From: Hyphomicrobium sulfonivorans
GTDB taxonomy: Bacteria; Pseudomonadota; Alphaproteobacteria; Rhizobiales; Hyphomicrobiaceae
DNA length: 64,000 bases
Reading direction: 5' to 3'
NCBI RefSeq assembly: GCF_013306565.1
Contig: NZ_PZPO01000001.1
Span: forward strand, 496,001 to 560,000
The notes beneath the pieces were generated by a model that saw only the letters and a program-made list of their open reading frames with translations, had not been told where the DNA came from and ran no database searches. Made by a program: the position numbers and the translations under genes. Shown piece after piece: positions 37,191 to 61,038 of the stretch; positions within the stretch are counted from its first letter, which is position 1, and the number at the start of each line of letters is the position of its first letter.

Positions 37191-37468
37191 GCGCAGGCCA
37201 TATCCAATATCCATTGAATTACCCGGCGTTGCAGCGCTCCGCACCAATCGTTTGCACTGTGAGTTTATTCATCTGCACGCCAATCAAGCTTGATTATCTG
37301 TCTAAGCATGACGGGATAATTCATTGTTAGCATTAGCATCCTATAGTCCAACACATGACGGATTGATCAGCGCTGCTGGCGCCATCAATTGGCATGATGC
37401 CACCCCCGTTATGCCGGTGCGAGCCCGGTATGTTGTCCGCTAATCCGCGAACAAGGGGCCGCCCGCAC
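37191..37468. other. Upstream region of the chemotaxis operon
   Basis: About 280 relatively AT-rich bases with no gene. It should hold the promoter for the che operon. No sigma-54 or other known consensus was clear by eye. Confidence 0.5.
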
Positions 37469-39343
37469 ATGGTGCTCGCCAATTTGAAAGTCTCCCGCAA
37501 ACTGGCGGTGGGGCTGATGTGTGTTCTCGTCGCTTTTGCCGTCACGGGGACCGCATTCTTTTTCACCCTTCTTTCTATTGAACGCGCAAACGAGGAAGTG
37601 ACTTCGGCCTCAAGCCTTAGCAAGCACCTCGTTTCGGCAACTGCCGCTATCTATGATGAGCAACAGGCCATCATGGACAATGCCGGCTCAGCTGCAATGC
37701 AGGCCGCTGGCCAGCGCTTCAGCGAACAGTTGATCTCCGCGCGCAACATCATCGCTCACAATCCGGCGCATGCAGCCATCGCGGCTGACATCGATGCGAT
37801 GGACAAGAATGTTGCCAGCTGGCGTCGCTTGGCCGGCATGGGCGACTACACAAACAGCAGCGCCATTTCAGCGTTCGCTAGTGCGCGAGCCTCTTCGGAA
37901 GCAGCGAAAAACGATGCCAATGTGTGGCTCGACAACGCCCAGGCGAACCTCAGCGAAGCACTTTACTATTCGCGCGCCACTCAGATGATCGGCAGCCTGC
38001 TGGCCATCGCCATGGCTCTCGTTTCTGGCTGGTGGATGTCACGCATGATTGCGCATCCGATCGGTCAGATCACGGGCGCCGTCACCGGACTTGCTGCGGG
38101 CAACAACAATGTTCAGGTTCCTGAACTTAACCGCACCGACGAAATCGGCCTGATGGCCACGGCGGTGGAAAGCTTCAAGCGCGCTGCGATCGAAAAGAAG
38201 CGCCTTGAGGATGAAACCGCTGCTGCTGCTGCTGCCGCCGAAGAAGCGCGCGTGAAGCAGGAAGCCGAGAGCCAGTTCTATGTGGACGCGCACAACACGT
38301 TCATGCGCGACTTCTCGAATGCGCTTGAGCGCCTCTCTAAGGGTGACCTGACCTTCCGTCTCAACACGCCCTTCACTGAGGACTACGAGAAGATCCGTCA
38401 CGACTTCAACACGACGGCATCCAGCCTGCAGGAAGCAGTCCTCACGATTGCATCCAGCACCCAGGCGATCCGCTTTGCCACCAACGAAATCTCTACCGCT
38501 GCCGACGATCAGTCGCGTCGCACGGCTCAGCAGGCTGCCAGCCTTGAAGAGACCGCTGCCGCTCTCGACCAGATCACTGCAACGGTGAACAAGACGGCTG
38601 AAGGCGCAGGCCACGCCCGTGAAGTGGTGGCTTCCGCGAAGTCGGACGCTGAGAAGAGCGATGAAGTCGTTCGCAAGGCGATTTCTTCGATGGGCGACAT
38701 CGAGCGTTCTTCGCAGCAGATCAGCCACATCATCGGCGTCATCGACGAGATTGCCTTCCAGACCAATCTTCTCGCACTGAACGCGGGCGTTGAAGCTGCC
38801 CGTGCCGGTGAAGCTGGACGCGGTTTTGCGGTCGTTGCATCGGAAGTGCGAGCACTGGCACAGCGCTCCGCGGAAGCTGCCAAGGAGATCAAGGGCCTCA
38901 TCTCCGCTTCGACCAAGCAGGTCGAGCAGGGTGTGGACCTCGTCGGCCAGATGGGCCAGGCGCTCGAACGCATCATGACCGAGGTTACGGAGATCAACAC
39001 GATCGTCTCCGAAATCGCGGCCGGTGCCAAGGAGCAGGCTGTCGGCCTTCAGGAGATCAACACTGGCGTCGGCCAGATGGATCAGGTCACCCAGCAGAAC
39101 GCTGCCATCGTCGAAGAGACAACTGCCGCCAGCCACGGTCTATCGCGTGAGATCGAAAAGCTGATGGACCTCGTTGGTCGCTTCGAGACGGGGCAGGATC
39201 TCAATATGGATCGGCCTGCACGGGATTCCCGCCCGGCTCAGAAGACCCACACAGCACTGAAGACTGTTTCGGTTCGCGGCGTCCCCGCAGCCGTGCGCAA
39301 GCTGGAGGCCATTGCCAATGAGCAGGACTGGGAAGAGTTCTAG
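37469..39343 (+). CDS. mcp: Methyl-accepting chemotaxis protein with C-terminal DWEEF tether
   Basis: About 624 residues from ATG 37469. Membrane helix 1 (about 12-34), periplasmic helical sensor of about 135 residues, helix 2 (about 173-193), HAMP, a coiled coil and probably a second HAMP (LERLSKGDLTFRLNTPF), then the signalling domain with hairpin tip IDEIAFQTNLLALNAGVEAARAGEAGRGFAVVA. The chain ends in DWEEF, matching the xWxxF pentapeptide that tethers CheR and CheB in enteric receptors. It opens the che operon, the position of icpA in Sinorhizobium, but here the receptor is membrane-bound. Signal sensed is unknown. Confidence 0.95.
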   Translation: MVLANLKVSRKLAVGLMCVLVAFAVTGTAFFFTLLSIERANEEVTSASSLSKHLVSATAAIYDEQQAIMDNAGSAAMQAAGQRFSEQLISARNIIAHNPAHAAIAADIDAMDKNVASWRRLAGMGDYTNSSAISAFASARASSEAAKNDANVWLDNAQANLSEALYYSRATQMIGSLLAIAMALVSGWWMSRMIAHPIGQITGAVTGLAAGNNNVQVPELNRTDEIGLMATAVESFKRAAIEKKRLEDETAAAAAAAEEARVKQEAESQFYVDAHNTFMRDFSNALERLSKGDLTFRLNTPFTEDYEKIRHDFNTTASSLQEAVLTIASSTQAIRFATNEISTAADDQSRRTAQQAASLEETAAALDQITATVNKTAEGAGHAREVVASAKSDAEKSDEVVRKAISSMGDIERSSQQISHIIGVIDEIAFQTNLLALNAGVEAARAGEAGRGFAVVASEVRALAQRSAEAAKEIKGLISASTKQVEQGVDLVGQMGQALERIMTEVTEINTIVSEIAAGAKEQAVGLQEINTGVGQMDQVTQQNAAIVEETTAASHGLSREIEKLMDLVGRFETGQDLNMDRPARDSRPAQKTHTALKTVSVRGVPAAVRKLEAIANEQDWEEF

Positions 39344-51723: not shown

Positions 51724-52334
51724 TCTGTCGACACCAGAACTTCTTCAAGCCATGTCGCTATGCGCGTTTCCAGCACCGACGTGCCAGCCTTCACTGTAAG
51801 CTCGATGCTATCGGCTGGCGTAAAGACCAGCGCTTCGGCAATGGCCTGCGGCAGCCCGTTGCGCACCGCTTCAAACGTATCGGCTGGTCCGGCAATCTCG
51901 ATTTTCAAACCCGGATTTGCCGCGGCAAGCTCTCTGACGGTAGTGCATATTTCGCTTACGGCGCGCATCAAAACCGCTTCAGCCAGGAATGGCCGCAGCA
52001 CCTGTGCAACCGCATCCCCGACCTGCTGACCGTACTGCTGCAAAGCATCGGCGAACTTTGCCGACAGCGCCGAAGTTTCTTCGCACCACTCCGCGCGCGC
52101 CGCTGCCAAAGAAGCTTCAAACTCTGTGCGCTGCTGTTCCATGCGTGCATCGGCCGTCGCTTCGACAGCCTGGCGCCCCTCGACAAGCCCCCTGGCATAG
52201 GCCTCATCAAGCTTCGCCTCCCAATCAAGCTCATCAACAACCGACATAACCGGGGCGAGCACAGGGCTCGCCACCGGTTGCGGAAGTTCGCTCGCGAACT
52301 CGACAAGGAAGTTGGCTATCGGGACAGCACTCAC
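51720..52334 (-). CDS. fliH: FliH-like flagellar export regulator
   Basis: About 204 residues. The likely start is GTG 52334, whose GTGA overlaps the fliF stop; a GTG at 52358 would overlap further. Helical N-terminus with YARGLVEG, a GxxxG-like stretch, and a C-terminal part (IEIAGPADTFEAVRNGLPQA) as in FliH/YscL proteins, which bind the export ATPase FliI. Weaker similarity than its neighbours, so the name leans on context. Confidence 0.75.
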   Translation of the reverse strand: MSAVPIANFLVEFASELPQPVASPVLAPVMSVVDELDWEAKLDEAYARGLVEGRQAVEATADARMEQQRTEFEASLAAARAEWCEETSALSAKFADALQQYGQQVGDAVAQVLRPFLAEAVLMRAVSEICTTVRELAAANPGLKIEIAGPADTFEAVRNGLPQAIAEALVFTPADSIELTVKAGTSVLETRIATWLEEVLVSTE

Positions 52335-54016
52335 GTCGTCACGCTCCCGCGCAGCCACTGCTTAAGGATCGTAACGGCCTGATCCTCGTCATACTCGATA
52401 ATCTGTTCGAGGCGCTTCTGCGGATTGCGATTGATCTTGCTGGTGAGGTCTCCGATCAGATCCGGCTCGCCATCGTCCATCGCAAACGGCATGCCCCCGC
52501 CTGCAAACGCCATATCACCCCCACCGAACGACGGTGAAAATGCCGGCGCAATCTGCGGCTCGAACGGCAGGTCGCTCGTCACGGAGGCAACAGCAGCCGG
52601 TGCTGCGATCGGCTGATACTCCAGTAGCATCCGCGTTGCCGGACGCAGACCGAACCACACCAAAATCATCGCCGCACCAAGCACCGCCAGCGCCTTGATG
52701 AAGGTGCCCATCTCACCCATCAGGAAGTCCGTCACCCCCGGACCCGGCAGCGGCTCAAGCATCTCGCCATGCGGCATGAACTCAACCGCCGCCACCGTGA
52801 TGCGATCACCGCGTTCGGTATCAGCGCCGGTTGCGGAAGCGACGATGTTCTCAACTTCCTTCAGCTTGGCAGCGATGGCGTCCGGCGCCGCGCCTTCGCC
52901 GAGCAACATTTCCAGACGCTTGCGGTTCAAGACCACCGCAACTGTCAACGCGTCGATGCGATATCCATCACTGACGGTCGACATCACCTTCGAGTTGGCC
53001 TCGTAGTTCTTCAGCTCTTCCTTGCGCTCGCTGGCGCGGGCAGAGCTGCTGTCGCCACCTGTCTGCGGCTGCTCTGCCGGAATGTTCTGCTCCACGCCGA
53101 CAGGCTGCGAATTGCCTGCATCCCGCGCGTTGCTCTTTTCCTTGATCGTGCGACGCGAGCGTTCAAAGCGCGAATTCGGATCGTACGTTGTTTCGTTGAT
53201 CTGGCGCTTGTCGATGTTGAGACGCGCAGCAACGCTGATCTGAAAGTTGTCGATGCCGATATAAGGCGCCAACGTCTGGCTGACATTCTGCTTCAGCTCG
53301 TTCGCAACCGTACGCTCAAGCTCCAGCATCTTCGTCGGCGCCGCATTGAAGGCACCTTCTCCGCCGGCCAGCACCGTGCCGTCCGTGCTCAACACGCGAA
53401 CCTGGTCAACGGTCAGGCCCGGTACCGCAGCCGCCACCAGATGACGAATGGCCTGGGATGAGTTGAACTCTGAAGTGGAATCGGCCCGGATCACCACCGA
53501 TGCAGAAGGCTTCTGCGTGCTGCGCCGGAACGAACCTGTATCCGCCATCACGATGTGCACACGCGCCGCGCGCACACCCTTCATGCCCTGAATGGTGCGA
53601 CTAATCTCGCCCTCCAGCGCACGGACACGCGTGATCTCCTGCATGAACGATGTCAGGCCGATCGCGCCCATCTTGTCGAACAGCTCATAGCCCGCGCTGG
53701 CGCTGCTCGGCAGACCTTTTTCCGCCAGCAGCATGCGCGCACGAGAAGCCTGTCCCGGATGGACAAGCACAGCCGTGCCTTCAGGATTCACATCGAATGA
53801 AATGCCGCTTTCCTGCAGCGCTGCACCGATGCGGGCGGCATCCTGCGGCTCAAGTCCCGCATACAGCGTCTCGAAGTCAGGACGGCTGAGATAGTAGCTG
53901 CTAAGTCCAACGGCGCTGAATACAGCCAGCCCTACCAGGCCCAGCACCGCAAGGCGCCGTGGGCCGAGAGCCAAAAGGTTGTCGCGCAGTTGCTTGAGCT
54001 GTTCGCTCCAGTTCAT
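52331..54016 (-). CDS. fliF: Flagellar MS-ring protein FliF
   Basis: 561 residues. N-terminal helix (LAVLGLVGLAVFSAVGLSSYYL), YscJ-like ring domains (FETLYAGLEPQDAARIGAAL; GYELFDKMGAIGLTSFMQEI; VRAARVHIVMAD), second helix near 445 (ALAVLGAAMILVWFGLRPAT) and a C-terminal FliG-binding tail (KRLEQIIEYDEDQAVTILKQ). It is the membrane base of the motor and the first gene of the fliF-fliH-motB-motC-fliK unit. Confidence 0.97.
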   Translation of the reverse strand: MNWSEQLKQLRDNLLALGPRRLAVLGLVGLAVFSAVGLSSYYLSRPDFETLYAGLEPQDAARIGAALQESGISFDVNPEGTAVLVHPGQASRARMLLAEKGLPSSASAGYELFDKMGAIGLTSFMQEITRVRALEGEISRTIQGMKGVRAARVHIVMADTGSFRRSTQKPSASVVIRADSTSEFNSSQAIRHLVAAAVPGLTVDQVRVLSTDGTVLAGGEGAFNAAPTKMLELERTVANELKQNVSQTLAPYIGIDNFQISVAARLNIDKRQINETTYDPNSRFERSRRTIKEKSNARDAGNSQPVGVEQNIPAEQPQTGGDSSSARASERKEELKNYEANSKVMSTVSDGYRIDALTVAVVLNRKRLEMLLGEGAAPDAIAAKLKEVENIVASATGADTERGDRITVAAVEFMPHGEMLEPLPGPGVTDFLMGEMGTFIKALAVLGAAMILVWFGLRPATRMLLEYQPIAAPAAVASVTSDLPFEPQIAPAFSPSFGGGDMAFAGGGMPFAMDDGEPDLIGDLTSKINRNPQKRLEQIIEYDEDQAVTILKQWLRGSVTT

Positions 54017-54154: not shown

Positions 54155-55093
54155 TTACCGGAACAGGCTCAGGATGCTCTGGCTGGAGCTGTTGGCGATC
54201 GACAGCGCCTGAATGCCAAGTTGCTGCTTCACCTGCAGCGCCTGCAAACGGGTTGATTCGGCATTCATGTCAGCGTCAACGAGCTGGCTGATGCCGCTTT
54301 CGATCGAGTTCTTGAGGCTCGAAACGAACGACTGCTGGATGTCGATACGCGCCTTGGCAGCACCCAGAGTGGTGGCGCCGGCAGCCATCTCGGTGATCGC
54401 ACGGTCCGAACCCTTGATGTAGCCATCAAGCGTTGCAAGGTCAGCCGTGCTGTCGGTCAGCGCCGAGATATTGATGTTAGCGATCGAGAACGTGCCGGCG
54501 GCATCAACCGCGCCGGTCGTGGCGTTACGGTTCGTGTCCAGAATGCCCTTCGCACCGGCAGCGGAATCGAACAGCTTCATCGAACTCGTCTCGATCGAGA
54601 TCGACTGAACCGAGATCGAACCGCCCGTACGGGCAATCGACGACACAACTTTCTTGGTCGAGTTATAGCCGGCAGCGGAAGAATCGACCGAAAGCCAGTT
54701 CTGGCCCTGCAGCGTGGCAGCGTCGGCCATGCCCTTGAGCTGCGACTGAAGTTCGGTGATTTCGGTCTGGATCTTGCCACGATCAAGACCGGGCTGAGCG
54801 GCAGCAACCAGCTTGTCCTTGATCTTCGATACGATGTTCTTGGCTTCGTCCATTGCCGTGTAAGCAACGTCGACGAAAGCTGCGCCAAGGCCGAGCGCGT
54901 CCTGCACCGTCGAGAGGGAAGAGTTGTCCGAACGCAGCGTGGTTGCGATCGACCAGTAAGCAGCGTTATCGGCTGCAGTGTTGACGCGCATGCCGGTAGA
55001 AATACGGCTCTGCGTCTGCGTCAATGCAGAGTTAGTGGACGTGAGAGAGCGGAGCGCCGTCATCGCGGCAACGTTGGTATTGATACTCGCCAT
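54155..55093 (-). CDS. fla: Flagellin paralogue 1 (short variable region)
   Basis: 312 residues. Conserved N-terminus (MASINTNVAAMTALRSLTST; STGMRVNTAADNAAYWSIAT) and C-terminus (QLGIQALSIANSSSQSILSL) form the D0/D1 coiled coil; the surface-exposed middle (about 165-215) is short. Its ends group with paralogues 2 and 3 (TTLRSD, AAFVDVAYTAMDE), but its short middle resembles paralogue 5. Exported filament subunit. Has its own structured leader at 55094-55190. Confidence 0.97.
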   Translation of the reverse strand: MASINTNVAAMTALRSLTSTNSALTQTQSRISTGMRVNTAADNAAYWSIATTLRSDNSSLSTVQDALGLGAAFVDVAYTAMDEAKNIVSKIKDKLVAAAQPGLDRGKIQTEITELQSQLKGMADAATLQGQNWLSVDSSAAGYNSTKKVVSSIARTGGSISVQSISIETSSMKLFDSAAGAKGILDTNRNATTGAVDAAGTFSIANINISALTDSTADLATLDGYIKGSDRAITEMAAGATTLGAAKARIDIQQSFVSSLKNSIESGISQLVDADMNAESTRLQALQVKQQLGIQALSIANSSSQSILSLFR

Positions 55094-55190
55094 TGTGTGT
55101 CCCTGCGAACGAGATACTGGGGGGACATACCGGACCAGCCGGTATGACAGTTCGGCATCATGCCTTTGGGTTCACGATACCCAACCTGTC
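55094..55190 (-). ncRNA. Structured flagellin leader 1
   Basis: Three stems as RNA on the minus strand. The outer stem is CTGTC/GACAG (55186-90 with 55146-50), enclosing hairpin TTGGGT/ACCCAA (55166-84). Hairpin 2 is ATACCGG/CCGGTAT (55127-45). Stem 3 pairs TGTCCC with the Shine-Dalgarno GGGACA (55122-27 with 55098-103). The invariant GGCATGATGCC lies inside the outer stem. Confidence 0.75.
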
Positions 55191-55367
55191 ATCACACAAC
55201 ACATATCCGATGAACTCTTGCGCGCGCCCTAACGACCAGGTCGCAACGTGCATACAATCGATGCGTCAAATACTCCGCTGATAATGTGCCTAATGATATC
55301 GCAACACGATTATTCGCGGCGGCGCACCAAACATGCAGCAGCGCTTCAAATCAGTTCACACGCAAAC

Positions 55368-55404
55368 AAAAAAGAAGGCCAAGCCCTGGAGGAGCTCGAC
55401 CTTC
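55368..55404 (-). terminator. Rho-independent terminator of flagellin 2
   Basis: 11-bp stem GAAGGCCAAGC / GCTCGACCTTC (two G:U pairs in the minus-strand RNA), then six U. Very similar in sequence to the terminator at 56619. Confidence 0.85.
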
Positions 55405-55441
55405 AGAAGTTAGGCGTCTGAAACGTGTAAGCGACGTAAGT

Positions 55442-56407
55442 TTAACGGAACAAACTCAGGATGCTCTGGCTTGAGCTGTTAGCAATCGCCAGTGCCTGAA
55501 TGCCAAGCTGCTGCTTCACCTGCAGTGCTTGCAAGCGTGTAGACTCAGCATTCATGTCAGCGTCCACAAGCTGGCTGATGCCGCTTTCGATCGAGTTTTT
55601 GAGGCTCGACACAAACGACTGCTGAATATCAATTCGCGCTTTAGCTGCACCTAGCGTGGTGGCGCCTGCAGCCATTTCGCTGATCGCGAGATCGGCGGCT
55701 TTGATATAACCATCGAGCGTCGCAAGATGGGCGGCGCTATCCGTCAACGTAGAGATGTTCATTGTCGACAGACGGAAATCCGTCGCAGCTGGTGTACCCG
55801 GCTGCGTTGCGTGTCGTTCACCGGTCGTTCCATCACGATACGCGTCGATAATGCCCACGCCATCGTCTTGCGTGCTGGCGTCAAACAGCACCATCGAAGA
55901 CGTATCGATAGAGATCGACTGCACCGAAATGCTGCCGCCAGACCGCGCAATCGAAGACACGATCTTCTTCGTTGCGTTGTAACCGGCCGCCTCGGAGTCA
56001 ACCGACAGCCAGTTCTGGCCCTGCAGCGTTGCAGCGTCAGACATGCCCTTGAGCTGTGACTGCAGTTCGGTGATTTCAGTCTGGATTTTTCCACGATCAA
56101 GTCCGGGCTGGGCGGCAGCGACCAGCTTGTCCTTGATCTTGGTCATGATGTTCTTGGCTTCGTCCATCGCCGTATAGGCGACATCGACGAAAGCTGCGCC
56201 GAGACCGAGCGCGTCCTGCACCGTCGAAAGCGACGAGCTGTCGGAGCGCAGTGTGGTTGCAATCGACCAGTAAGCTGCGTTGTCAGCAGCAGTGTTGACG
56301 CGCATGCCTGTCGAAATACGACTTTGTGTCTGAACAAGAGAAGAATTGGTCGCGGTGAGAGCACGCAGCGCCGTCATCGCGGCGACGTTGGTATTGATAC
56401 TTGCCAT
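55442..56407 (-). CDS. fla: Flagellin paralogue 2 (long variable region)
   Basis: 321 residues, with the same conserved ends as paralogue 1 and a 9-residue longer variable middle (GIIDAYRDGTTGERHATQPG) shared with paralogues 3 and 4. It differs from the others by ATNSSLVQTQSR near residue 20. Rhizobial filaments are built from several such subunits. Which of the five is principal cannot be read from sequence. Separate leader (56408-56507) and terminator make it an independent unit. Confidence 0.97.
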   Translation of the reverse strand: MASINTNVAAMTALRALTATNSSLVQTQSRISTGMRVNTAADNAAYWSIATTLRSDSSSLSTVQDALGLGAAFVDVAYTAMDEAKNIMTKIKDKLVAAAQPGLDRGKIQTEITELQSQLKGMSDAATLQGQNWLSVDSEAAGYNATKKIVSSIARSGGSISVQSISIDTSSMVLFDASTQDDGVGIIDAYRDGTTGERHATQPGTPAATDFRLSTMNISTLTDSAAHLATLDGYIKAADLAISEMAAGATTLGAAKARIDIQQSFVSSLKNSIESGISQLVDADMNAESTRLQALQVKQQLGIQALAIANSSSQSILSLFR

Positions 56408-56507
56408 CAGGCTGTCCCTTCAAACGCAATACTTGCGGGACATACCGGGTCATGACCGGCATGACAGTCCGGCATCATGCCCTTGGGTTCGTTTGACCCA
56501 ACCTGTC
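56408..56507 (-). ncRNA. Structured flagellin leader 2
   Basis: Same fold. Outer stem CTGTC/GACAG (56503-07 with 56463-67), inner TTGGGT/ACCCAA (56483-88, 56496-501), hairpin 2 ATACCGG/CCGGCAT with one G:U (56442-62), and stem 3 TGTCCC/GGGACA (56437-42 with 56413-18) holding the ribosome site. Confidence 0.75.
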
Positions 56508-56618
56508 ATGCACGAACATTTAGCTTTGAGCGTTTGCAAGCCGCCTAAAGAAACTCTTCAACTCTTATCTATCTGCCTGAAACAACCGTCGCCGACGCGG
56601 GCTGATGAAAAAACAATT

Positions 56619-56655
56619 AAAAAGAAAGCCAAGCCCTGGGAGGAGCTTGGCTTTC
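56619..56655 (-). terminator. Rho-independent terminator of flagellin 3
   Basis: Perfect 11-bp stem GAAAGCCAAGC / GCTTGGCTTTC with a 10-nt loop, then UUUUU on the minus strand. Confidence 0.9.
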
Positions 56656-56680
56656 AATAGGCAGGCATCTGCTGTCCGGA

Positions 56681-57646
56681 TTAACGGAACAGGCTCAGGA
56701 TGCTCTGGCTGGAGCTGTTGGCGATCGACAGCGCCTGGATGCCAAGCTGCTGCTTGACCTGCAGTGCCTGCAAGCGGGTCGACTCTGCATTCATATCAGC
56801 GTCGACCAGCTGGCTGATGCCGCTCTCGATCGAGTCCTTCAAGCTGGAAACAAATGACTGCTGAATGTCGATGCGTGCCTTGGCAGCACCTAGCGTTGTC
56901 GCGCCGGCGGTCATCTCAGTGATTGCGCGATCAGCGCCCTTGATGAAGCCGTCGAGCGTTGCCTGATCCGCAGTGCTGTCGGTCAGCGTCGAGATATTGA
57001 TGTCCGACAGACGGAAGTCCGTCGCAGCCGGGGTAGCAGGCTGGGTGGCATAGCGCACGCCGGTGGTGCCGTCGCGATATGCGTCGATGATGCCAACTCC
57101 GGCGACAGCCGCGTTGGAGTCGAACATGATCATCGAGCTGGTATTGATCGAAATCGACTGCACATTGATGGTGCCACCAGAACGCGCGATCGACGAAACA
57201 ACCTGCTTCGACGCGTTATAGCCTGCTGCAGACGAGTCAACCGAAAGCCAGTTCTGGCCCTGCAGACTGGCAGCGTCGCCGATGCCCTTCAACTGAGACT
57301 GCAGTTCGGTGATTTCGGTCTGGATCTTCGCGCGGTCAAGGCCCGGCTGAGCGGCAGCGACCAGCTTGTCCTTGATCTTGGTCATGATGTTCTTGGCTTC
57401 GTCCATCGCCGTATAGGCGACATCGACGAAAGCTGCGCCGAGACCGAGCGCGTCCTGCACCGTCGAAAGCGACGAGCTATCCGAGCGAAGCGTGGTCGCG
57501 ATCGACCAGTACGCGGCGTTGTCGGCGGCGGTGTTGACGCGCAGGCCGGTAGAAATGCGGTTTTGCGTCTGCTCAAGCGCAGAGTTCGTGGAGGTAAGAG
57601 AGCGCAGCGCCGTCATAGCGGCAACGTTGGTATTGATACTCGCCAT
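56681..57646 (-). CDS. fla: Flagellin paralogue 3 (long variable region)
   Basis: 321 residues from ATG 57646. An in-frame ATG at 57703 would read through the structured leader and is rejected, because all paralogues start MASINTN. The conserved ends belong to the 1-3 group; the variable middle (GIIDAYRDGTTGVRYATQPA) is of the long type. C-terminal QSFVSSLKDSIESGISQLV is intermediate between the two end groups. Confidence 0.97.
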   Translation of the reverse strand: MASINTNVAAMTALRSLTSTNSALEQTQNRISTGLRVNTAADNAAYWSIATTLRSDSSSLSTVQDALGLGAAFVDVAYTAMDEAKNIMTKIKDKLVAAAQPGLDRAKIQTEITELQSQLKGIGDAASLQGQNWLSVDSSAAGYNASKQVVSSIARSGGTINVQSISINTSSMIMFDSNAAVAGVGIIDAYRDGTTGVRYATQPATPAATDFRLSDINISTLTDSTADQATLDGFIKGADRAITEMTAGATTLGAAKARIDIQQSFVSSLKDSIESGISQLVDADMNAESTRLQALQVKQQLGIQALSIANSSSQSILSLFR

Positions 57647-57746
57647 TAGAGTGTCCCTTGGGATGACCTGTTTACAATCGGGACATGCCGGTCTCACCGG
57701 CACAACAGTTCGGCATCATGCCCTTGGGTTCGTGGCCCAACCTGTC
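57647..57746 (-). ncRNA. Structured flagellin leader 3
   Basis: Outer stem CTGT/ACAG (57742-45 with 57705-08), inner TTGGG/CCCAA (57724-40), hairpin 2 TGCCGGT/ACCGGCA (57686-702), stem 3 TGTCCC/GGGACA (57680-85 with 57652-57). Confidence 0.75.
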
Positions 57747-57875
57747 ATAGCCAATGCTTAATGATGAATACCTTGCATTCTAACTAACGCGGCGTCGCTT
57801 GACCGATGTTTCGACCGTGCGGCATTAACGCTCACAAAACGTACTGAACGAGACATAAACGGACGTCCAAATACG

Positions 57876-57910
57876 AAAAGGGCCAGACCTCTCAAGGATC
57901 CGGCCCTTTC
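57876..57910 (-). terminator. Rho-independent terminator of flagellin 4
   Basis: 8-bp stem AAAGGGCC / GGCCCTTT with a 17-nt loop, followed by a short U-run (UUUUCG) on the minus strand. Confidence 0.75.
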
Positions 57911-57932
57911 AATAATGTTCGTTGAGCGTGTT

Positions 57933-58898
57933 TTAGCGGAACAGGCTCAGGATGCTCTGGCTGGAGCTGTTGGCGATCGACAGCGCCTGGATGCCAAGCT
58001 GCTGCTTCACCTGCAGCGCCTGCAAGCGGGTCGACTCTTCGTTCATGTCAGCGTCGACGAGCTGGCTGATACCGCCCTCAAGCGCATCCTTCAGGCTCGA
58101 CACGAAGGTCTGCTGAATGTCGATGCGCGCCTTGGCGGCACCCAGTGCGGTTGCACCGGCTGCGAGTTCAGTGATCGCGCGATCCGCACCCTTGATGTAG
58201 CCATCGAGCGTCGCAAGATCGGCCGTGCTGTCGGTCAGCGCAGAGATGTTGATGCCGACGATGTTGAAGTCGGTAGCGGCAGGCGTGGCCGGCTGGGTTG
58301 GATAACGAATACCGGTGGTAGCGTTGCGGTATGCATCGAGAATGCCGACGCCTGCAACAGCCGCGTTCGAGTCAAACAACACCATCGACGACGTGTCGAT
58401 CGTGATCGTCTGCACCGAGATCGTGCCGGCAGCACGCGCAATCGACGAAACGATATTCTTCGATGCGTTATATCCGGGCGCTGACGAATCCACTGAAAGC
58501 CAGTTCTGGCCCTGCAGAGTTGCAGCGTCAGCCATGCCCTTCAGCTGCGCCTGCAGCTCGGTGATTTCAGTCTGGATCTTCGCGCGATCAAGACCAGGCT
58601 GCGCAGCAGCAACCAGCTTGTCCTTGATCTTGATGACAAGGTTCTTCGCCTCATCAAGCGCCGTATACGCCACGTCAACCGTCGCAGCGCCGAGGCCGAG
58701 AGCGTCCTGCACCGTCGAAAGCGCCGACGTGTCGGACTTCATGGTCGTGGCGATCGACCAGTAAGCTGCATTGTCGGCCGCCGTGTTAACGCGCAGACCG
58801 GTCGAAATACGATCCTGTGTGCGCGTGAGGGCGTCGTTAGTTGAAGTCAGAGAGCGCAGCGCGGTCATCGCTGCAATGTTCGTGTTGATACTAGCCAT
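57933..58898 (-). CDS. fla: Flagellin paralogue 4 (long variable region, second end group)
   Basis: 321 residues. The ends define a second group with paralogue 5 (LTRTQDRISTGLRV, TTMKSDTSALST, AATVDVAYTALDEAKNLVIK, DALEGGISQLVDADMNEEST), while the variable middle (GILDAYRNATTGIRYPTQPA) is the long type of paralogues 2 and 3. Own leader and terminator. Confidence 0.97.
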   Translation of the reverse strand: MASINTNIAAMTALRSLTSTNDALTRTQDRISTGLRVNTAADNAAYWSIATTMKSDTSALSTVQDALGLGAATVDVAYTALDEAKNLVIKIKDKLVAAAQPGLDRAKIQTEITELQAQLKGMADAATLQGQNWLSVDSSAPGYNASKNIVSSIARAAGTISVQTITIDTSSMVLFDSNAAVAGVGILDAYRNATTGIRYPTQPATPAATDFNIVGINISALTDSTADLATLDGYIKGADRAITELAAGATALGAAKARIDIQQTFVSSLKDALEGGISQLVDADMNEESTRLQALQVKQQLGIQALSIANSSSQSILSLFR

Positions 58899-59005
58899 TG
58901 GTGGCCTGTCCCTTAGAAAAATTGTTGCTCATGGGGACATGCCGGATCAATTCCGGCACGGCGTATCGGCATCATGCCCTTGGGCGAAAACCGCCCAACC
59001 CGCCG
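58899..59005 (-). ncRNA. Structured flagellin leader 4
   Basis: Outer stem is CGGCG/CGCCG (59001-05 with 58959-63), a full replacement of the GACAG/CTGTC pair of leaders 1 and 2. Inner hairpin TTGGGCG/CGCCCAA (58980-98), hairpin 2 TGCCGGA/TCCGGCA (58940-58), stem 3 TGTCCC/GGGACA (58934-39 with 58907-12). Confidence 0.78.
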
Positions 59006-59077
59006 TTGCATTACAGGCCTAGCAACCGATCACAAGAATCGTCGCTGATACGAAATACAAAAAGCCTTCGATAATTA

Positions 59078-59108
59078 CCTTGGCGCACGCAATAAATCAG
59101 CGCCAAGG
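59078..59108 (-). terminator. Probable terminator of flagellin 5
   Basis: Perfect 9-bp stem CCTTGGCGC / GCGCCAAGG with a 13-nt loop. The minus-strand downstream sequence is AU-rich (UAAUUAU) rather than a pure U-run. Confidence 0.6.
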
Positions 59109-59126
59109 CTAACCTTGCCGATCCTG

Positions 59127-60065
59127 TTACTTGAACAGGCTCAGGATGCTCTGGCTGGAGCTGTTGGCGATCGACAGCGCCTGGATGCCAAGCTGCTGCT
59201 TCACCTGCAGCGCCTGCAAGCGGGTCGACTCTTCATTCATGTCAGCGTCGACGAGCTGGCTGATACCGCCCTCAAGCGCGTCCTTCAGGCTGGCCACGAA
59301 GGTCTGCTGAATGTCGATGCGTGCCTTGGCAGCGCCCAGTGTCGTCGCGCCTGCAGCCAGATCGGTAATCGCGCGATCGGCACCCTTAATGTAGCCATCG
59401 AGGATGGCCATATGCGCGGTGCTGTCCGTCAACGCCGAGATGTTCAACGTTGCAATGTTGAACGTACCTGCCGGATCGACTACGCCGGTAGCTGCATCGC
59501 GCATCGAATCGAGAATGCCGGCAGCCGTAGCGCTGTTGTCGTACAGAACCATGCCAGCAGTGTTGATGGAAATGGTCTGCACCGAAATGGTGCCTGCGGC
59601 GCGCGCAATCGACGAAACCACCTGCTTGGTTGCAGTGTAGCCGGCCGCGGACGAATCCACCGAAAGCCAGTTCTGGCCTTGCAGGCTCGCTGCGTCGGCG
59701 ATGCCCTTCAACTGCGACTGCAGCTCGGTGATTTCCGTCTGAATCTTTTCGCGATCAAGACCGGGCTGTGCAGCAGCGACCAGCTTGTCCTTGATCTTGA
59801 TTACGAGGTTCTTCGCCTCATCAAGCGCCGTATAGGCGACATCGATGGTGGCTGCACCGAGACCCAGGGCATCCTGCACCGTCGAAAGCGCTGACGTGTC
59901 CGACTTCATGGTCGTAGCGATCGACCAGTAAGCCGCGTTATCAGCAGCCGTGCTGACGCGCAGACCGGTCGAAATACGATCCTGCGTGCGCGTGAGTGCA
60001 TCGTTGGTTGATGTCAGAGAGCGCAGCGCTGTCATTGCTGCGATGTTCGTATTGATACTAGCCAT
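59127..60065 (-). CDS. fla: Flagellin paralogue 5 (short variable region, second end group)
   Basis: 312 residues. Ends as in paralogue 4, but with a short middle (GILDSMRDAATGVVDPAGTF) like paralogue 1. It ends in Lys (LSLFK), where the other four end in Arg. It is the flagellin nearest fliP and first in transcription order. Confidence 0.97.
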   Translation of the reverse strand: MASINTNIAAMTALRSLTSTNDALTRTQDRISTGLRVSTAADNAAYWSIATTMKSDTSALSTVQDALGLGAATIDVAYTALDEAKNLVIKIKDKLVAAAQPGLDREKIQTEITELQSQLKGIADAASLQGQNWLSVDSSAAGYTATKQVVSSIARAAGTISVQTISINTAGMVLYDNSATAAGILDSMRDAATGVVDPAGTFNIATLNISALTDSTAHMAILDGYIKGADRAITDLAAGATTLGAAKARIDIQQTFVASLKDALEGGISQLVDADMNEESTRLQALQVKQQLGIQALSIANSSSQSILSLFK

Positions 60066-60175
60066 TTTGGAAGCCTGTCCCGAGGAGTTAGTGTTGCTTA
60101 TGGGACATGCCGGATCACCATTCCGGCACGGCGGCTCGGCATCATGCCCTTGAGCGGAAACCGCCCAACCCGCCG
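60066..60175 (-). ncRNA. Structured flagellin leader 5
   Basis: Outer stem CGGCG/CGCCG (60171-75 with 60129-33), inner hairpin TTGAGCGG/CCGCCCAA (60150-68, one G:U in RNA), hairpin 2 TGCCGGA/TCCGGCA (60108-28), stem 3 TGTCCC/GGGACA (60102-07 with 60076-81). Confidence 0.78.
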
Positions 60176-60243
60176 TGTGACGCTACTCAACCATCTACCG
60201 CTGAAGAACTGGTTAACGAAACGCAACCATTCGCTCAAAAAAG

Positions 60244-61038
60244 CTACACATAGGAGCGAATCAGACCGCCGACGAGCAAATTCCAGCCATCGATCAGAAC
60301 AAAAAACAGGATCTTGAACGGCAACGATATGATCGTTGGCGGCAACATCATCATGCCCATCGACATGGTCAAAGTTGCAACGATCATGTCGATCACGAGA
60401 AACGGCAGAACCATCAGAAACCCGATCTCAAAACCGCGCCGCAGTTCAGAGATCATGAAGGCCGGGATCAGAATCCGCAGCTCGATGTTTTCATCCGTTT
60501 GCGGCGGAGGTGGCGGGGGCGGCGTTTCAGTCTGCTCGCCTTGCGATCCATTTTGACGGGGCCACAGCCGTTCGTGCGCCAGATCGTAGAACAGCTTCAA
60601 ATCTTTGTCGCGCACGTTCGCCAGCATGAATGATCGAAACGGCGCTACGATTTGCGTAAAGGCTTCCTCTTCGCTGATCTTATTTTCAATGAGCGGAGCA
60701 ACACCGTTTTTCCAGGCCTTGTCGAATGTCGGCGTCATTACATACAGCGTCATGAACAGCGCCAGGCTGATCAGGATCAGGTTGGCCGGTGTTGTTTGCA
60801 GACCGATACCCGAGCGCAGAAAGGAAAGCGCTACAACGAACCGGGTAAAGCAGGTCACCATCACCAAAATGCCAGGCGCTATCGACAGCACCGTGATCAG
60901 CATCACGAACTGAATGATGCGGCCCGCGGCAGAGGCATCGCCCTGCGGCAACAGCTCCTCCAGGCTCGGCAGTGTTTGCGCCGCTGCGTGAACAGTCCCA
61001 AGACCGAGCAACAGCACAATCAGAAGGGCTCGCTTCAT
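60244..61038 (-). CDS. fliP: Flagellar export gate protein FliP
   Basis: 264 residues. Signal peptide (ALLIVLLLGLGTVHAAAQ), then the FliP core: VMLITVLSIAPGILVMVTCF, RFVVALSFLRSGIGLQTTPAN, a periplasmic domain with a Pro-run insert (residues about 175-185), and RRGFEIGFLMVLPFLVIDMIV with MGMMMLPP near the end. Forms the export gate with FliQ and FliR, which are not here. Overlaps fliL (ATGA). Confidence 0.97.
   Translation of the reverse strand: MKRALLIVLLLGLGTVHAAAQTLPSLEELLPQGDASAAGRIIQFVMLITVLSIAPGILVMVTCFTRFVVALSFLRSGIGLQTTPANLILISLALFMTLYVMTPTFDKAWKNGVAPLIENKISEEEAFTQIVAPFRSFMLANVRDKDLKLFYDLAHERLWPRQNGSQGEQTETPPPPPPPQTDENIELRILIPAFMISELRRGFEIGFLMVLPFLVIDMIVATLTMSMGMMMLPPTIISLPFKILFFVLIDGWNLLVGGLIRSYV

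Follow-up and report, generated by a model that had tools for sequence, protein, structure and literature searches.

The 64,000-nucleotide (nt) stretch analysed here (hereafter the window) is from Hyphomicrobium sulfonivorans, NCBI RefSeq assembly GCF_013306565.1, contig NZ_PZPO01000001.1, positions 496,001 to 560,000. It carries five minus-strand leaders of 95–101 nt, each upstream of one flagellin gene and all with one common fold of five helices (P1–P5), the last of which pairs an upstream UGUCCC with the Shine-Dalgarno (SD) sequence GGGACA. They belong to a real and widespread family of structured leaders that matches no Rfam family and occurs in many Hyphomicrobiales bacteria, mostly before flagellin genes and in some cases before chemoreceptor genes. 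The interpretation favoured here, with a probability of about 0.58, is that this is a cis-acting RNA family of its own, ~100 nt long, which controls the translation of flagellin and probably of some chemoreceptor mRNAs, being off by default and opened by one subfamily (clade A) of the protein FlbT. An original prediction, made from the window sequence, had described five ~100-nt flagellin leaders with a common fold; all five are where it placed them, with P1–P5 present in 5/5. They are listed below with their genes, in window coordinates; bit scores are from R1, a covariance model built from the five window leaders.

55098..55192, minus strand: leader element 1, of flagellin 1, with P1 enclosing P2 and P3, then P4 and P5 (97.5 bits)
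55098-55103, minus strand: SD GGGACA of leader element 1
55121-55126, minus strand: TGTCCC, the strand pairing with that SD
54155..55093, minus strand: flagellin gene 1, 312 amino acids (aa), Pfam Flagellin_N and Flagellin_C
56413..56509, minus strand: leader element 2 (100.7 bits)
55442..56407, minus strand: flagellin gene 2, 321 aa, named by likeness to flagellin gene 1
57652..57748, minus strand: leader element 3 (80.6 bits)
56681..57646, minus strand: flagellin gene 3, named by likeness to flagellin gene 1; its start codon is taken as the ATG that opens MASINTN, in place of the GTG further upstream where the mechanical open reading frame (ORF) begins
58907..59006, minus strand: leader element 4 (100.5 bits)
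57933..58898, minus strand: flagellin gene 4, 321 aa, named by likeness to flagellin gene 1
60076..60176, minus strand: leader element 5 (97.5 bits)
59127..60065, minus strand: flagellin gene 5, 312 aa, named by likeness to flagellin gene 1

Fold and covariation of the leaders

In the common fold, P1 encloses P2 (TTGGG..CCCAA) and P3 (GGCATGATGCC; GGC-AUGAN-GCC), P4 is a CCGG hairpin, and P5 is the SD helix. The SD was predicted to lie 4–10 nt before the ATG, and the spacings are indeed 4, 5, 5, 8, and 10 nt. Among the five leaders alone, standard pairs fill 97.2% of 144 pair cells and double changes occur in nine cells, against a shuffled mean of 3.8 (0/500 shuffles as high in either case); 5 of 29 pairs have a double change, a number reached by 24 of 500 shuffles. 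Further pair types are not enriched (9 against a shuffled mean of 9.9; 443/500 as high). Covariation at this level is limited to P1, P2, and P4. Since P3 and P5 are invariant among the five, neither has covariation evidence within the window; support for P5 comes from relatives. The covarying outer stem of the original prediction stands, except that leader 4 has one G-A mismatch in P1 and that leader 3, described as shortened, keeps all of its pairs, the outer two as G:U. Its claim that the hairpins vary with pairing kept is true of P2 and P4, but P3 does not change.

Folding-energy z values of leaders 1–5 (-2.70, -2.25, -0.38, -1.81, and -1.77) are not clearly unusual for all; single-sequence folding energies are weak evidence and are not used for the case made here. 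When the leader 2 segment is cut inside P1, its minimum-energy fold departs from the common one; with flanks, its P5 pair probabilities are 0.87–0.97. In fold predictions for all five leaders, the P5 pair probability is at least 0.9, the outermost pair excepted.

Within the family, R1 has matches in 47 of 103 genomes (E ≤ 0.01), spread over 13 of 25 genera. Its successor R2, built from 98 matches, has matches in 99 of 397 genomes of the order (E ≤ 0.001), in 38 of 141 genera. The negatives of both searches may hide weak copies, because stricter filters were used and few candidates were scored per genome. As a negative control, in flagellin loci of element-negative genomes searched with filters off (24 of 30 fetched loci, 13 genomes), the best E value was 0.12; four further element-negative genomes had no flagellin match. 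A strict pattern scan of named genomes gave at least 119 stretches. The 80 loci listed comprise 78 placed in Hyphomicrobiales and two without an assignment; the matches listed include Bradyrhizobium (28), Hyphomicrobium (5), Aminobacter (3), and Ensifer (2), as well as Sinorhizobium, Agrobacterium, Mesorhizobium, and Microvirga.

Three alignments were compared: A4, the 88 distinct sequences among the 98 matches; A5, 82 distinct rows from the order; and A6, 131 rows from A4 and A5 (100 chosen sources). All were fitted to the covariance model and so lean towards the proposed structure. In A4, 94.1% of cells are paired and 335 show a double change (mean of shuffles, 93.5); in A5, 92.3% are paired and 377 show one (mean of shuffles, 108.1). 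Shifting the partner by 1–3 columns lowers pairing to 29–44% in both. Because related rows inflate double-change counts, a tree-based test was applied as well, using an R-scape-like script of our own rather than R-scape (average-product-corrected G-test, compared with null alignments generated along a FastTree tree by relocating the reconstructed substitutions to random positions; for the strongest pairs, E values come from fitting an exponential tail). Eleven of 4950 pairs are significant in A5 (four in P1, six in P2, one in P4) and 11 of 4656 in A6 (five in P1, six in P2), and every one is a proposed pair, while five fresh simulated alignments for each of the three sets gave none. When only the 29 proposed pairs are considered, A6 supports 6/6 in P1, 7/7 in P2, 1/4 in P3, 2/6 in P4, and 2/6 in P5. 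The leader is a structured cis-regulatory RNA with covariation beyond phylogeny; the selection on RNA structure proposed in the original prediction is borne out by these wider alignments, where the significant A5 and A6 pairs all fall in its fold.

It is also SD-sequestering, the SD strand being paired with a covarying partner (the two P5 pairs of the structure-only test). The helix varies as one unit: UGUCCC/GGGACA is found in 65 of 131 rows, UGUCCC/GGGGCA in 12, and UGUUCC/GGAACA in 11, and in the model-fitted alignment at least five of the six pairs are kept in 117 of 130 rows. A doubtful match, L023:726-845 (E 0.009), is excluded from the latter count and included in the 131-row A6 test. 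The start codon lies 4–8 nt 3' of P5 in 124 of 135 rows, all of which fit a loosely defined flagellin pattern and have a start no more than 20 nt away. The unpaired letters kept in at least 95% of rows are the last three of the AUGA loop (U, G, and A); its first A, kept in 99%, is counted as paired, yet that fourth pair is often broken.

Genes behind the element

By reading, the 88 A4 rows comprise 68 flagellins, five receptors in the window's genus, and 15 rows from genus g10 (Hyphomicrobium) without a long gene directly behind; a script tally of 66 flagellin, 18 other, and four none was reassigned accordingly. Of the seven g10 rows read further, six have a receptor-type gene ~200 nt downstream and one (L068) a CheA-like ORF. 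The 82 A5 rows comprise 77 flagellins, four receptors, and one flagellin-like protein (script tally 74 flagellin, six other, two none). The duplicated-array setting emphasized in the original prediction is less weighty than it was thought to be, since the element is found in front of lone flagellins and of chemoreceptor genes too. At L294 (1001-1111) it precedes a diverged flagellin-like protein that keeps the AAYWSI motif and may be a paralogue with a regulatory role or a gene copy in decay.

Nine of 10 full-length genes behind non-flagellin elements encode the Pfam domain MCPsignal. They are from the window's genus (G007 and G045), Hyphomicrobium (G076 and G077), two genomes of family f23 (G283 and G468, with Protoglobin), and G332, which has three, one of them with Protoglobin. 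Two receptor fragments matched no Pfam family because they were cut upstream of the signalling domain; longer stretches gave MCPsignal in 9/9. A CheA-like gene of G332 with CheW and HATPase domains (L441) was not counted as a target, its element match being poor. In G332 the elements precede three receptor genes and one flagellin, at four places on one contig at least 0.6 Mb apart.

The window itself holds a receptor-linked copy, absent from the original prediction and found by covariance-model search:

37355..37453, plus strand: sixth element, chemoreceptor leader (R1 30.0 bits, E 8e-4; R2 35.7 bits, E 0.003 over the whole genome)
37469..39343, plus strand: methyl-accepting chemotaxis protein gene, 3' of the sixth element (MCPsignal 5.9e-52, HAMP 3.7e-9)

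Its P2 is ATTGAT/ATCAAT, replacing TTGGG/CCCAA, while the AUGA-loop and CCGG hairpins are kept. R2, with 150 of 2002 candidates scored, found six elements at E ≤ 0.1 in the window's whole genome, all inside the window. A receptor start close behind the element (0–17 nt in five rows) is confined to the window's genus. The Hyphomicrobium receptor-linked elements have an ATG ~4–7 nt behind them, which in most rows opens a short ORF (~42–54 aa; L023, L027, L049, L051, L052, L055, L057, L062, L065, L068, and L075), with little visible conservation and ~200 nt upstream of the receptor gene; it may be a leader peptide, a relic, or chance. About 15–40 nt upstream of most of these elements is a block like TCGTAAAC-AATTCGATAG-TTTGCC, which we take to resemble a sigma-28-type promoter; none was seen by eye upstream of the window's receptor leader. 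The last residues of the window's chemoreceptor are DWEEF, and several others encoded behind an element finish in WEEF or WAEF, a tail that presumably resembles the tether of adaptation enzymes. Around the flagellin array, ORFs named by eye as fliF-like (52331-54016) and fliP-like (60244-61038) lie on either side on the same strand.

FlbT and the proposed control

FlbT is encoded at G000:C6:577765-578136 in the window's genome, where FlbT and FlaF lie ~18 kb past the window end. It was found in 287 of 397 order genomes, and a comparison of the lists by hand places it in 98 of 99 element-positive genomes versus 189 of 298 element-negative ones; the sole element-positive genome without it, G212, is 86% complete. 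Motility itself explains part of this association. Nine genera include both an element-positive genome with at least two FlbTs and an element-negative one that bears FlbT (genera whose positives have a single FlbT fall outside the count). In these, at least two FlbTs occur in 40/40 element-positive versus 5/28 element-negative genomes (g120, 10/10 vs. 0/3; g93, 11/11 vs. 0/4; g130, 6/6 vs. 0/1; g59, 5/5 vs. 2/9; g140, 2/2 vs. 0/2; g146, 2/2 vs. 1/1; g105, 2/2 vs. 2/6; g112, 1/1 vs. 0/1; g104, 1/1 vs. 0/1). A narrower set of five hand-picked genera gives 34/34 versus 2/19.

A midpoint-rooted IQ-TREE phylogeny of 71 FlbTs (70 of 80 matches and the window's own; 124 columns; bootstrap not fully settled) has support of 100/100 at its deepest split; those of G131, G300, G260, G023, G203, G348, and G261, one of G313, and two of G404 were left out. 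Every FlbT encoded within ~33 kb of an element (34 in all) falls in clade A, together with three of the four whose linkage is unknown and that of the element-negative genome G021. The unlinked second FlbTs (16 of 16), those of the other element-negative genomes (16 of 17), and the remaining one of unknown linkage make up the other clade. As expected of an FlbT-responsive leader, the element stands before a flagellin and near its start codon, with flbT in the same genome and cluster. The FlbT-type target of the original prediction is thus suggested by genomic association (the 98 of 99 genomes and the clade split), the element being probably a target of one FlbT subfamily, clade A. FlbT was not found within the 80 named element loci, and its comparison with solved structures gave no credible match (best E 0.94).

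In the proposed mechanism, the upstream half, with P1 closing a junction of the variable P2 and the near-invariant P3, would be the recognition part, and the AUGA loop its likeliest protein contact. The downstream half, with P4 beside P5, would keep the flagellin SD in a helix, so that the resting state is off; because P4 adjoins P5, it could pass upstream changes on to it. Clade-A FlbT, encoded in the same flagellar cluster, would bind the recognition part and free the ribosome site, so timing the synthesis of filament (and receptor) protein to the appropriate stage of assembly. FlbT is cast as an activator because an off leader needs one and because reports for the order describe it as one. 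The analysis itself shows the conserved and covarying fold, the potential of the SD to pair, the distribution and gene classes of the element, and its link to clade-A FlbT, whereas the binding of FlbT, the activation, the opening of P5, and the transcription start are inferred. A broader proposal, held more tentatively and at somewhat under even odds, is that one RNA element serves as a trans-regulated handle joining filaments and chemoreceptors, co-evolved with one FlbT subfamily, and that subfamily and RNA together set activation (clade A) or repression (Caulobacter). If true, this split by subfamily would resolve the contradiction in reported signs.

Several results weigh against an FlbT-opened leader of this kind. 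The tree-based test on A4 gave just two significant pairs of 3916, both in P2; A4 is weak in this test because it has too little divergence, and the case is carried by A5 and A6. P5 has 0/6 significant pairs in the A6 all-pairs test, and in P3 the A-C cells (17) exceed the G:U cells (12). The SD-pairing helix of the original prediction is kept in most relatives but is short or lost in some f23 rows (e.g., L268) and weak in the window's receptor leader, whose SD AAGGGG is only partly paired in the predicted fold. Receptor-linked matches outside Hyphomicrobiaceae are weak singly (E 0.0002–0.07) and owe their credibility to the gene class. Outside the window's genus, the receptors' first in-frame ATG is 89–385 nt downstream of the element; given this distance, and the short ORF between in Hyphomicrobium, P5 need not cover the receptor start. 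G021 has a clade-A FlbT, yet no element in 3/4 flagellin loci (L388, L397, and L408) nor genome-wide at E ≤ 0.1, which makes it a natural test case for the role of FlbT without the element. The association of FlbT with flagellin leaders may also be co-inheritance of a flagellar type whose genes lie in one cluster.

Two alternatives would take the element out of this family altogether. It is very improbable that these are DNA-level repeats, operators or recombination sites between duplicated genes, although the stems read as palindromes in DNA, the genes stand in tandem copies, and the model has weak opposite-strand matches (14.8–17.5 bits). G:U cells outnumber A-C cells by 179 to 72 over all helices and by 45 to 5 in P5, the helix in flagellins ends at a nearly fixed distance from the ATG, and the element recurs with altered stem sequences before single flagellins and unlinked receptor genes. 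Slighter still is the chance that it is a diverged flg-Rhizobiales RNA (RF01736), an identity raised in the original prediction and refuted here. Both are cis-regulatory RNAs near flagellar genes in the same order, with several hairpins, but the leaders have no Rfam match even at E ≤ 10. At gathering score the window matched no family except a tRNA, and four chance-level matches (E 3–9.6) overlap no leader. RF01736 had no match in the window's own genome or in 60 genomes of its family, and one below the 55-bit cut-off in 121 genomes around G234; since control genomes were unmatched in these searches too, the decisive one is that of 32 element-positive genomes. There RF01736 exceeds the cut-off in six, all of family f35, and none of its listed matches is at an element's place. 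It also differs in consensus and length (141), and in the one case read (L105 1501-1649) it overlaps the beginning of a gene encoding FlgE/F/G rod-protein domains, read as flgF. In five of the six f35 genomes (L105; G427, G389, G346, G330, and G136) it lies ~23 kb or less from a FlbT other than the element-linked one, on the same contig; the second flagellar cluster apparently has its own RNA.

The other two alternatives keep the RNA and change what acts on it. FlbT might bind the same leader with opposite sign, repressing the mRNA or destabilising it for as long as the hook is unfinished. In published accounts of Caulobacter, FlbT binds flagellin 5' untranslated regions (UTRs), represses together with the flagellin FljJ (PMC7591256, PMC3930126), and promotes decay of the mRNA (PMC4347634); a repressor could clamp a leader whose SD is hidden. 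This is nonetheless judged unlikely, given the accounts from the order itself: Brucella FlbT is proposed as an activator (PMC4347634, PMC9812332), of fliC and by a mechanism called unresolved (PMC4347634, PMC8781033), Bradyrhizobium FlbT is stated to induce the lateral flagellins LafA1 and LafA2 translationally (PMC8429497), and flbT was picked up in a motility screen of A. fabrum (PMC9812332). The element's FlbT clade also stands well apart from the order's other clade, in a tree without Caulobacter FlbT. Doubtful to a similar degree is a structured translational leader that answers to a small RNA, another protein, temperature, or a small molecule, with FlbT a mere neighbour. In its favour, the FlbT evidence is all genomic association, clusters travel together, and G021 breaks the pairing of element and clade A. 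Against it, no Rfam family was matched, and the scattered elements of G332 call for a trans-acting factor, being at four places so far apart.

Comparison with known systems

FlbT has been cited since 2000 as a regulator of flagellin 5' UTRs, and a review table leaves its motif blank and its mechanism unresolved, with opposite signs in two organisms (PMC4347634). With a covarying candidate target whose distribution follows one FlbT clade, this question of mechanism becomes directly testable. In the Caulobacter FlbT system, Che proteins are described as controlled along with flagellins (PMC9812332); as an idea, joint control of the two has a precedent, and the novelty lies in a shared RNA element. 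Its receptor-linked copies suggest a post-transcriptional coupling of receptor synthesis to filament synthesis. A literature search limited to open-licence papers found no recognised description of the element, and no Rfam 15 family matched it.

Leaders such as riboswitches sequester the SD with an upstream anti-SD strand, as the element does, though it matches none of the Rfam families. CsrA/FliW control, reportedly the subject of a Campylobacter paper on flagellin leaders, is similar in that flagellin translation is governed through the leader; in the element the GGA of the SD is inside a stem. The closest parallels are the FlbT-regulated 5' UTRs of Caulobacter, Brucella (fliC, proposed), and Bradyrhizobium (lafA), all post-transcriptionally controlled flagellin 5' UTRs with FlbT present. 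The Bradyrhizobium likeness goes further: in B. diazoefficiens SZCCT0423 (L143) the element precedes three flagellins of ~300 aa, the size given for the lateral flagellin system (PMC8429497). These genes are beside fliF, an arrangement like that of the window's array. The comparison with Caulobacter is by description. The cited passages on these systems give no conserved structure, whereas the element described here is a covarying family with an SD helix, a link to one FlbT clade, and receptor genes among its targets.

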